Below are positions 33,801 through 36,497 of a DNA stretch of 64,000 nt, in pieces. A model generated the notes under the pieces. The model was not told the origin of the DNA, did no database searches, and was given only the letters and a program-made list of their open reading frames with translations. Location: assembly GCF_029688865.1 (NCBI RefSeq), contig NZ_JARUKV010000004.1, forward strand, positions 62,001-126,000. Reading direction: 5' to 3'. Made by a program: the position numbers and the translations under genes. The DNA is from Natronococcus sp. A-GB7 (GTDB lineage: Archaea > Halobacteriota > Halobacteria > Halobacteriales > Natrialbaceae). How positions within the stretch are numbered: position 1 is the first letter of the stretch; each line of letters begins with the position of its first letter.

Positions 33801-35324
33801 ATGCTGACGAAGGACCTGCTGCGCGTCTCGAGAGCAGGCGGCGGCTACCACCCGCAGTTCGCGAGCCGCGAGCACCGTCCGCTGGCCGCCCGCGTCATCG
33901 GGACCTACCAGGGCCACGTCGGCGAGTCCCGCGGGGAGCTCGAGAGCGCCCTGACCGATCTCGAGCGCGATGCCGACCACTTCAAGCTCGTCCGGGGGTT
34001 TTCGGCCCTGCTCGAGCGCGACGCGAGCTTCGAGACCGACGCGGCGATCGATCCCGAACGCGCCCGGAAGGTGGCCTTCGAGGCGGCCGAGGCCGTCGGC
34101 GTCGTCACCGGCGAGGACCGCGAGGCGGCGCTCGCCCGCGCGGCCGACGGGCTCGGGCTCTCGCCGGACGCCCTCGAGTCGGCGCTGTACGCCGATCTCG
34201 AGGAACGACAGGTCCTCGGGGCGATCGAATCGCGGTGGGATCCCGCCGACCTCGTGGCCCAGTACAACCTCTCGCTGGCACAGACGGCGCTGTTCGACGC
34301 CACCGAACTCCGCGTCAGGTCGAGCGATCCGAAGGCGCTGGTGTCGGCGATCAAGCGGCTTCGACTGATGTACGAGATTCACAAGACGGACGACGCGAAC
34401 GAAACCGACCTGAGCGACCGCGAGGTCGTCGTCACCGGTCCAACTCACCTCTTTCGCGCGACCCGTCGGTACGGCACCAGGTTCGCCCGCCTTCTGCGGA
34501 CGGTCGCGAAAGCCGACGAGTGGCACCTCGAGGCGACGATCGACGACCGGGGCACCGAACGTGTCCTCGAGCTCTCCGACGCCGATCCCGTGCGGGTGCC
34601 CGACGCCGAGCCCGTCGCCGACGTCTCCTTCGACAGCGGCGTCGAGGCCGACTTCGCCGGGCGCTTCTCGAGTCTCGAGCTCGACTGGGAGCTCGTGCGC
34701 GAGCCCGAGCCCCTCGAGACCGGGACCCGGGTGATGATCCCCGACTTCGCGTTCGACTACTCGCATAGCGACTTTCGGGTCTTCTTCGAGATCATGGGCT
34801 TCTGGACGCCCGAGTACGTCGAGAAGAAACTCGCCCAGCTCGCCGATCTCGAGGACGTCGAGCTGGTCGTCGCCGTCGACGAGTCGCTCGGCGTCGGCGA
34901 GGAGATCGCGGCACGGGACTTCCGGGCGATCCCCTACTCCGGTAACGTTCGGCTGAAGGACGTCCGCGATGTCCTCCGGGAGTACGAGCGCCAGCTCGTC
35001 GCCGACAGCGCGGCCGCACTGCCCGAGGAGCTGCGACCAGACGCCGACGTCCACACGCTCGAGGAGCTGGCCGCCGACCGCGGCGTGAGCGAGGACGCGC
35101 TGGCCGACGTCGCCTTCCCCGAGCACGAACTGGTCGGCCGAACGCTGGTTCGACCGTCGGTGCTCGAGGAACTCGGCGAGGCGCTCGAGGCCGGCTCGTC
35201 GCTGTCCGAAGCGGAGGCGATCCTCGAGTCCTACGGAATCGGGGACTCGAGTGCGGTGCTCTCGAAACTCGGCTATCGCGTCGAGTGGGAGGGGCTGGCG
35301 GGTGGGACACTCGTCGAACGCTGA
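33801..35324 (+). CDS. Bax1, XPB-binding nuclease (DUF790)
   Basis: A 507-residue DUF790 protein. The N-terminal start MLTKDLLRVSRAGGGYHPQF is characteristic, and the central helical region YNLSLAQTALFDATELRVR follows. The nuclease part near residues 315-345 holds the motif PDF (Asp315) and FFEIMGFWTPEYVEKKLAQL (Glu330, Lys342-343), as in PD-(D/E)xK-type enzymes. Bax1 binds archaeal XPB and acts as a structure-specific nuclease in nucleotide excision repair; elsewhere xpb and bax1 are direct neighbours. Here 3.4 kb with panE, ASRT and the symporter separates them. Confidence 0.9.
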   Translation: MLTKDLLRVSRAGGGYHPQFASREHRPLAARVIGTYQGHVGESRGELESALTDLERDADHFKLVRGFSALLERDASFETDAAIDPERARKVAFEAAEAVGVVTGEDREAALARAADGLGLSPDALESALYADLEERQVLGAIESRWDPADLVAQYNLSLAQTALFDATELRVRSSDPKALVSAIKRLRLMYEIHKTDDANETDLSDREVVVTGPTHLFRATRRYGTRFARLLRTVAKADEWHLEATIDDRGTERVLELSDADPVRVPDAEPVADVSFDSGVEADFAGRFSSLELDWELVREPEPLETGTRVMIPDFAFDYSHSDFRVFFEIMGFWTPEYVEKKLAQLADLEDVELVVAVDESLGVGEEIAARDFRAIPYSGNVRLKDVRDVLREYERQLVADSAAALPEELRPDADVHTLEELAADRGVSEDALADVAFPEHELVGRTLVRPSVLEELGEALEAGSSLSEAEAILESYGIGDSSAVLSKLGYRVEWEGLAGGTLVER

Positions 35325-35407
35325 CGTTCGTCTACAGACTCTCGCTGGAGCGGACGGCTGCTCTCTCCGATCCAACGGCAGTATACAACCAATATCGATT
35401 GTATTCA

Positions 35408-35451
35408 CTATAACAATCTTTTTCACTTGTGTAGTTGTGAAACAGACACGA
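35408..35451 (+). promoter_or_regulatory. Promoter region and inverted repeat of the SatD-like gene
   Basis: A TATA-like CACTATAACA (about 35406-35415) is followed by the inverted repeat TTTCAC (35421-35426) - 10 bp - GTGAAA (35437-35442), ending 9 bp before the ATG. The repeat lies where transcription should start for a leaderless gene. It is a plausible operator, possibly for the HTH of the protein itself. Confidence 0.55.
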
Positions 35452-36108
35452 ATGGAACCCGGCAACTCCAAAACGCCTTCCTCACGATACGTCCTGCTCG
35501 GGGACGTAGTCGGTTCGAGGGAGATTACCGATCGAGACGGATTTCGAAAGCAACTCAGGGACACTCGGCAGACGGTCACGGAGTCGTACGAGGACTCTTT
35601 CGCTACGCCGCTTTCCGCTCTAAAAGGTATCGACGAAATAGGCGCTGTGTTGACATCGGTCGAACACCTCTACAACATCGTCGTCGCGCTCACCGATCGC
35701 CTCCGTCCACACTCCATTCGGCTTGCGGTCGCTTTCGGGGAGATCGAGTTCGGAGTCGACGACCAGGATGTCTCGCAGATGGACGGGGAGGCGTTCCACC
35801 GGGCGACAGAACTCCTGAAATCCATCGAACGGACCGGTCTTCGGTTCGACCTCGATACCGGGACAGCCCCGCTCGATACCGCAGTTGCAGACGAGATCAA
35901 CCTGCTGCTACATCTTCGCGAATCGTGGACCGACCGTCAACGCGACGTAGTCGAACTGTACGAGCGAACCGGCAATCAGCAAGCGGTTGCCGACGATCTG
36001 GACGTGAGCCAGCAAGCCGTTTCGAACGCACTCCGGGGCGCATCGTGGCCACTCGCCGAGACGATCGAGACCCGATTACGGCGAACGCTCGAGGCGTACG
36101 GCCGATGA
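35452..36108 (+). CDS. SatD family protein: cyclase-like domain plus HTH
   Basis: A 218-residue protein of the SatD family. Residues 12-150 resemble a class III nucleotidyl-cyclase/palm fold: VLLGDVVGSREIT (Asp18; compare the cyclase D-I/V-V-G-S/F-T), LKGIDEIGAVL (Asp61; compare K-x-G-D-E), IRLAVAFGEIEFG (compare R-x-G-I-x-x-G-E), then QMDGEAFHRATELL (compare G-x-x-V-N-x-A-x-R-L). Residues 158-200 form an HTH (DRQRDVVELYERTGNQQAVA, then SQQAVSNALRG), sigma-4-like. The stop overlaps the ATG of the following membrane protein by 4 bp. Whether it makes a cyclic nucleotide is untested; several residues may be degenerate. Confidence 0.8.
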   Translation: MEPGNSKTPSSRYVLLGDVVGSREITDRDGFRKQLRDTRQTVTESYEDSFATPLSALKGIDEIGAVLTSVEHLYNIVVALTDRLRPHSIRLAVAFGEIEFGVDDQDVSQMDGEAFHRATELLKSIERTGLRFDLDTGTAPLDTAVADEINLLLHLRESWTDRQRDVVELYERTGNQQAVADDLDVSQQAVSNALRGASWPLAETIETRLRRTLEAYGR

Positions 36109-36497
36109 CTGGGATCGGTATCGCCCCGGCGGTGACCGATGCTGCGATCATCGTCGCTGCCTACCTCGGAGTAGTCGTGACCAGTGGTTCGGTAGTAACG
36201 AGGACACTTTCGTGGGCTGACTCGGAGTATGCCGATACCGTTACCGACACTGATCGCGATATTGGAGTCGTCGTCGGGAAGACCGAGAACGTTCTCCTGT
36301 TGACGCTGGTTCTCGTCGGTGCGTACACGGCGATCGCGGTCATTTTCGCAGCAAAAAGTATCGTCCGGAGCGACGACATGAAAAATAACAGTCTGTTCTA
36401 TCTCGCCGGAACACTGGTCAACGTCACGTACTCCGTGATGGTTGGGATCGTTGCACGGATTCTCGTCGGTGCGAGCGGAACGACACCGGTGTTTTGA
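36105..36497 (+). CDS. SatD-associated three-helix membrane protein (DUF3307-like C-terminal region)
   Basis: A 130-residue membrane protein with three predicted helices (about 9-27, 60-82, 98-122). The segment GVVVGKTENVLLLTLVLVGA followed by TAIAVIFAAKSIVRSDDM, then YLAGTLVNVTYSVMVGI, matches the C-terminal region of bacterial DUF3307 proteins (family look: iGxLERlLil, AAKSIxR, GTLxS--xAl--G), which are typically paired with SatD genes. It overlaps the SatD-like gene by 4 bp (ATGA). Only about half the usual DUF3307 length; the HD-like N-terminal helices are missing. Confidence 0.7.
   Translation: MTGIGIAPAVTDAAIIVAAYLGVVVTSGSVVTRTLSWADSEYADTVTDTDRDIGVVVGKTENVLLLTLVLVGAYTAIAVIFAAKSIVRSDDMKNNSLFYLAGTLVNVTYSVMVGIVARILVGASGTTPVF

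Follow-up and report, generated by a model that had tools for sequence, protein, structure and literature searches.

SatD of Natronococcus sp. A-GB7 is probably a one-component autoregulator of its own operon, with a class III cyclase-like domain as putative sensor and a small membrane protein as the only other product. The evidence from sequences and models comprises the fold class of SatD, an invariant pair of Asp residues, the obligatory pairing of the two genes, operator arrays tied to this pair, half-sites which track the recognition helix, and the lack of other perfect sites. The window, i.e., the whole stretch of 64,000 nucleotides that was analysed, contains satD and the gene of the membrane partner, which overlap by 4 bp (ATGA; Table 1).

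Table 1. Genes and predicted operators of the satD unit (positions in the window).
Feature	Position	Strand	Details
SatD-family protein, 218 aa	35452..36108	+	ATG 35452, stop 36108; class III cyclase-like domain (residues ~10-135; Asp18, Asp61), C-terminal HTH (~159-197, recognition helix SQQAVSNAL)
Small membrane partner, 130 aa	36105..36497	+	ATG 36105, stop 36497; three hydrophobic segments; homologous to DUF3307 C-terminal half; conserved D52, G54, G58, K59, E61, N62, K84, R88, D91, N106
Distal operator (predicted) TACAACcaatatcgATTGTA	35384..35403	none	core ACAACC-N6-GATTGT at 35385-35402 = ACAACCAATATCGATTGT
Proximal operator (predicted) AACAATctttttcaCTTGTG	35412..35431	none	core 35413-35430 = ACAATCTTTTTCACTTGT; 28 bp from distal operator; spacer CTTTTTCA at -34..-27 from ATG

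The gene pair, its distribution and the membrane partner

A two-gene unit at 35421-36497 had been predicted from the sequence alone. Both genes were found as described, but position 35421 falls inside the proximal operator, and the functional unit begins at about 35384 with the distal operator. satD is present in one copy in the genome. It is preceded on the same strand by a DUF790 (Bax1-like) gene (window 33801-35324), and a DUF7122 gene lies downstream of the pair on the opposite strand. DUF7122 adjoins the pair in Natronococcus, in a second genus of the family, in another family and in several uncultured haloarchaea, often with DUF790 ahead; the DUF790 gene precedes the satD pair in several haloarchaeal lineages. 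In a relative without the pair (L205), the DUF790 and DUF7122 genes are 76 bp apart. The pair is patchy within the family, and one relative carries it on a 417-kb plasmid. In several haloarchaeal families the pair occupies one shared chromosomal site, flanked by the DUF790 and DUF7122 genes, which suggests vertical inheritance. A search of plasmids and phages gave three plasmid matches and no phage match, and an origin of the pair from a mobile element or phage was rejected on these numbers.

Of 284 haloarchaeal genomes, 35 contain satD and exactly these 35 contain the partner, at 36 places each, which is the co-occurrence expected in the original prediction; the pair is real and not a chance arrangement, since 35 genomes of the class carry it. 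Both genes are neighbours in 35 of the 36 loci, commonly with the 4-bp overlap, and no partner without satD was found in the 284 genomes. Three genomes matching only the HTH part of the SatD model (G069, G178 and G273) were not counted. In locus L039, a TnpB/OrfB-like transposon gene separates satD, which is intact, from a partner gene that appears intact, and two perfect operators are retained. The partner also adjoins satD in most loci outside the haloarchaea, bacteria included. The pairing thus extends beyond archaea, and bacteria have the same short version. SatD without an intact partner was found as well: the partner is reduced to a remnant in L098 and L100, in which satD is whole and the operators are kept, satD is without partner in L106, and this is common in Calditrichota, where a six-helix membrane gene converges on satD. 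Convergent membrane genes with three to seven hydrophobic segments, overlapping the 3' end of satD by a few to about 55 bases and looking CPBP-protease-like, were observed in the Calditrichota loci L137, L138, L147, L149, L151, L155, L156, L162, L164-L166 and L170-L172. In a Limnochordaceae locus (L154), the gene after the pair looks, by eye, like one with a CHASE2 domain, which is a sensor domain found with cyclases.

The partner has the three hydrophobic segments and the resemblance to the end of DUF3307 which had been predicted. It is homologous to residues ~154-252 of the long DUF3307 proteins. This region lies outside the Pfam DUF3307 model PF11750, which covers residues ~11-115 of the long proteins and matches neither the window partner nor any of 29 short relatives. 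In 31 long partners, nearly all highly conserved residues are in the C-terminal half (G182, G186, E189, R190, K212, R216, Y228, G232 and S236, each 31/31), and the short partners keep the corresponding G-E, K-x3-R and G positions. The C-terminal half is therefore the common core, and the protein in the window has the core alone. The N-terminal half of DUF3307 (L080, 1459-2211) has relatives in the phage family PHROG 2470 (‘membrane protein’, 119 positions) and shows few conserved residues, one Asp and one His, in satD-linked proteins. A model of the partner (pLDDT 85) gave no fold match in the PDB, and the searches recognised no nucleotide-binding domain in it. Pfam matches obtained with the partner and related proteins (TraP and others, E ≥ 0.007) were rejected as chance.

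Nearly all loci fit one of two SatD types. Type A has the motif x-G-D-[ES] and a long partner or no partner, whereas type B has [KR]-G-x-D-E, which is one residue more, and a short partner. Loci of type B never carry the N-terminal half of DUF3307. The window protein belongs to type B: it reads KGxDE in place of GDEF, with an additional residue ahead of the second Asp. In a tree calculated without the insertion column, type B groups on a single branch (SH-aLRT 97); the KGxDE insertion and the short partner therefore count as one event, and a repeated origin, which would have been evidence for repeated coevolution, was discarded. One haloarchaeal genome (G050; loci L056 and L059) contains both types, each with its own form of the partner and its own operator sequence.

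Operator arrays and probable control of the operon

The sigma-4-like HTH predicted to follow the cyclase-like part was recovered as a Sigma70_r4-like match (E 9e-4, under the Pfam cut-off) and corresponds to helices 161-216 of the predicted SatD model. It had been treated as incidental; the operator arrays, however, make transcriptional autoregulation the best-supported function. The palindromes ahead of satD have arms of six and a spacer of eight and are repeated every 28 or 29 bp. Halobacterial, Methanoperedens, Methanomassiliicoccales, Hydrothermarchaeota, Acidobacteria and Planctomycetota loci of type B share ACAACC-N6-GGTTGT or close forms, and haloarchaea with type A have GTTCGC-N8-GCGAAC at the same 29-bp period. 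A score of at least 18 was reached in 61 of 99 distinct paired loci, whereas among 799 control windows, taken upstream of the other ORFs of these loci, 14 did so. The only peaks of the period are at 28 bp (19 loci) and 29 bp (44 loci), other periods being found in 0 to 3 loci. In type B loci, the density of sites upstream of satD exceeds that in the remainder of the loci 868-fold for exact sites and 130-fold when one mismatch is allowed. All 14 exact ACAACC-N6-GGTTGT sites, found in 8 of the 11 genomes searched, are directly before satD. The distal operator of the window is one of only three sites with at most one mismatch in the genome (4.88 Mb) and the sole one before satD; the reversed control pattern occurs four times. 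The proximal operator is degenerate in the window (three mismatches), intact in a sister species (L093) and has one mismatch in L031. Some paired loci (e.g., L038, L043, L061 and L111) show no recognisable array by the same score, and the array is absent in Calditrichota having satD without partner. Sites with one mismatch elsewhere are about as numerous as those of the reversed control pattern, and no wider regulon is claimed.

The half-site tracks the recognition helix of SatD among these loci, which are related and were compared without correction for kinship: [STR]QQAVS is found with ACAAC (most loci), [AS]KSTVS with GTTCG, SQ[AS]AVS with ATAAC, S[IV]Q[AS]VS with T[CA]AA[CA] and QNVE with TCACC. 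Together with the missing arrays in Calditrichota, where satD stands alone, this points to SatD as the probable binder, which is a strong indication and not a formal test. In the literature searched, no DNA-binding or operator role was found for the SatD family.

The spacer of the proximal operator is located at -34 to -24 from the ATG in most Halobacteria and has an AT content of 0.68, compared with 0.45 upstream. The TATA box of archaeal leaderless transcripts is expected at about this position. The last palindrome abuts the start codon in bacterial loci such as L131, L124 and L129 and covers a -35-like TTGACG in L158. Sites at the TATA position, the start codon or the -35 element favour repression over activation as the sign of regulation.

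Two rival arrangements concern the membrane partner; together with the enzymatic reading discussed below, they are compatible with autoregulation and with one another. A rather doubtful one is that the partner tethers SatD at the membrane and sets it free when a membrane or envelope signal arrives, the array serving for feedback. LytTR regulatory systems, known from bacteria and some archaea, provide the analogy: a regulator and a small membrane inhibitor are encoded in one operon, repeats are located ahead of the promoter, and the system is autoregulated (PMC6193735). The two-gene operon and the repeats of this plan are present in the satD unit, the charged residues E, K and R of the partner are invariant in long and short forms as may be expected of a contact surface, and the SatD insertion at Asp61 goes with the form of the partner, though in a single event. 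In contrast to the LytTR systems, SatD has only HTH-type matches and no LytTR domain, and its palindromes, spaced 28-29 bp, lie over the predicted promoter instead of being direct repeats upstream of the -35 element; in haloarchaea they overlap the TATA position. Moreover, SatD persists where the partner is absent (Calditrichota and L106) or decayed (L098 and L100).

The second arrangement, with a similarly small chance of being correct, resembles a toxin-antitoxin system: SatD would hold in check a membrane protein whose overproduction is harmful, through repression and perhaps also through binding. The architecture fits type II systems, with the regulator first, a 4-bp overlap, autoregulatory palindromes, no other perfect site and a patchy occurrence (35 of 284 genomes). 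So does the one-sided dependence, in that no partner was found without SatD and SatD also occurs where the partner is broken or missing. The satD gene is accessory in Streptococcus pyogenes, being present in ~71% of the genomes, but transposon screens identify it as essential (PMC11323703), which would be expected of the restrainer of a harmful neighbour. This one-sided dependence and the analogy to S. pyogenes encourage the toxin-like reading. Against it stand the shared synteny between DUF790 and DUF7122, which points to vertical keeping, the few matches in mobile DNA (three in plasmids, none in phages), and the PADLOC search with SatD, in which no defence system was matched except for a hit of the HTH region to a CARF protein (E 0.003).

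The cyclase-like domain of SatD

The four segments quoted for the 218-aa protein in the original prediction, including Asp18 and Asp61, are present. The protein matches the Pfam family SatD (PF16264) with an E-value of 2.7e-14 and 53.8 bits, which is above the gathering cut-off of 29, over model positions 4-195 of 211 and is, judged by this profile, a SatD-family member. It shares the domain order and the DUF3307-type pairing in archaea and bacteria with the known family (PF16264, with satD of the Streptococcus mutans sat operon; PF11750) and differs by the extra residue of KGxDE and by a partner without the whole PF11750 part.

An AlphaFold2 model of SatD, calculated with 27 homologues, reached pLDDT 94.1 and pTM 0.89. 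The order of elements is b1 (10-19), a (28-45), b2 (50-56), b3 (62-67), a (73-83), b4 (89-99), a (113-128) and b5 (132-135), followed by five helices with the HTH. A Foldseek search of the PDB placed class III cyclases in the first eight ranks with probability 1.00, among them Rv1900c, OaPAC, Ma1120 and guanylate cyclases; for the CHD of Rv1900c, E was 5e-5 and TM 0.52 by target. GGDEF domains, GTP cyclohydrolase III and Cas10/Cmr2, all of the palm class, rank thereafter, and a viral fold library returned cyclases and GGDEF again and no nearer relative. A sequence search of the PDB with the single protein gave no match, and the SatD profile matches Rv1900c (1ybt) weakly (E 0.13) through the cyclase part. 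According to the model, the domain has the class III cyclase homology fold in a distant relation (TM about 0.5), and cyclase ancestry, as predicted, is well supported. GGDEF domains as nearest relatives in place of class III were considered and rejected: the profile E-values (7.5e-4 versus 6.9e-4) are inseparable, only the class III alignment spans both Asp residues, and the fold search ranks class III first. With TM about 0.5 and profile-profile E ~1e-3 to class III and GGDEF alike, the exact palm subclass is left open.

Asp18 at the end of b1 and Asp61 at the start of b3 occupy the two metal positions of class III, as had been proposed. In 63 homologues from haloarchaea, methanogens, Methanoperedens and many bacterial phyla (mean column identity 30%), Asp18 is present in 62 (one gap), Asp61 and G59 in all 63 and R90 in 60; G112 and F115 are essentially invariant, too. 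The Asn/Arg pair which stabilises the transition state in class III, on the helix after the fourth strand, is not found in SatD, where His takes the Asn position in 54 of 63 homologues and the Arg position is variable (D, E, A and others); the motif here is G-[PE]-[AC]-F-H-x-A-x-x. The register of the Asp residues was taken from the profile alignment, while that of Asn/Arg is by motif alignment, as hhalign ends at residue 116. Compared with the class III cyclases (Rv1900c CHD, 1ybt/1ybu), SatD thus shares the fold, the order of elements, both metal Asp residues and the G-x-x-F/V...A motif of the following helix, and differs in lacking the Asn/Arg pair, in being shorter, in the fused HTH and in the weak sequence similarity (TM about 0.5). 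Regulators of the PucR/CdaR type have a cyclase-related domain within a DNA-binding regulator. Two of them, a fragment of Rv2242 (9f80) and a polyketide synthase regulator (3onq), appeared in the fold search and ranked below class III, with poor superposition (rmsd over 14 A).

That SatD is an active nucleotidyl cyclase or related enzyme, converting an NTP to a cyclic or linear nucleotide that targets the partner or SatD itself, with the HTH only setting the dose, is unlikely. The fold and the strict conservation of the metal Asp pair, G59, R90, G112 and F115 across many phyla, which is unusual for a purely degenerate domain, speak for an enzyme, but the Asn and Arg positions are replaced, so cyclisation by class III chemistry is unsupported; the Lys close to the second Asp, conserved as Lys or Arg in all of type B, is not kept in type A; and the partner has no recognised nucleotide-binding domain. 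Of the nucleotide sensor or cyclase originally suggested, the ancestry is well supported and a cyclase activity is not, and that interpretation as a whole is partly supported.

Proposed mechanism and significance

In the autoregulator model, the N-terminal cyclase-like domain would be the sensor and is probably a metal-NTP-binding dimer, and the C-terminal HTH would bind the tandem palindromes, one every 28-29 bp, over the promoter of its own operon. SatD would thereby keep the operon low by repression. It may be released by a change of its nucleotide state as the signal (binding of a ligand, or formation of a product, at Asp18/Asp61) or by contact with the partner, and the membrane protein as output would be made only on demand. 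A bolder version is quite improbable: SatD would be a minimal cyclase-type enzyme that is active and has its DNA binding switched by its own product or substrate, and the pair would be a separate signalling class, present across archaea and many bacterial phyla, with a single polypeptide acting as nucleotide enzyme, as sensor and as repressor of its membrane effector.

In very many genomes, SatD and DUF3307 are names to which no function is attached. The operator arrays are a first, direct and cheap handle on what SatD binds, and they point to a probable control of its own operon alone and hence to the membrane partner as the purpose of the system. It would be unusual for the class III cyclase fold to serve as the sensor in a one-component regulator, and little is known of cyclic-nucleotide signalling in archaea (PMC6741144). 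Should SatD restrain a harmful membrane protein, the absence of satD from some lineages of Streptococcus pyogenes and its essentiality in the tested carriers would be explained as well (PMC11323703).
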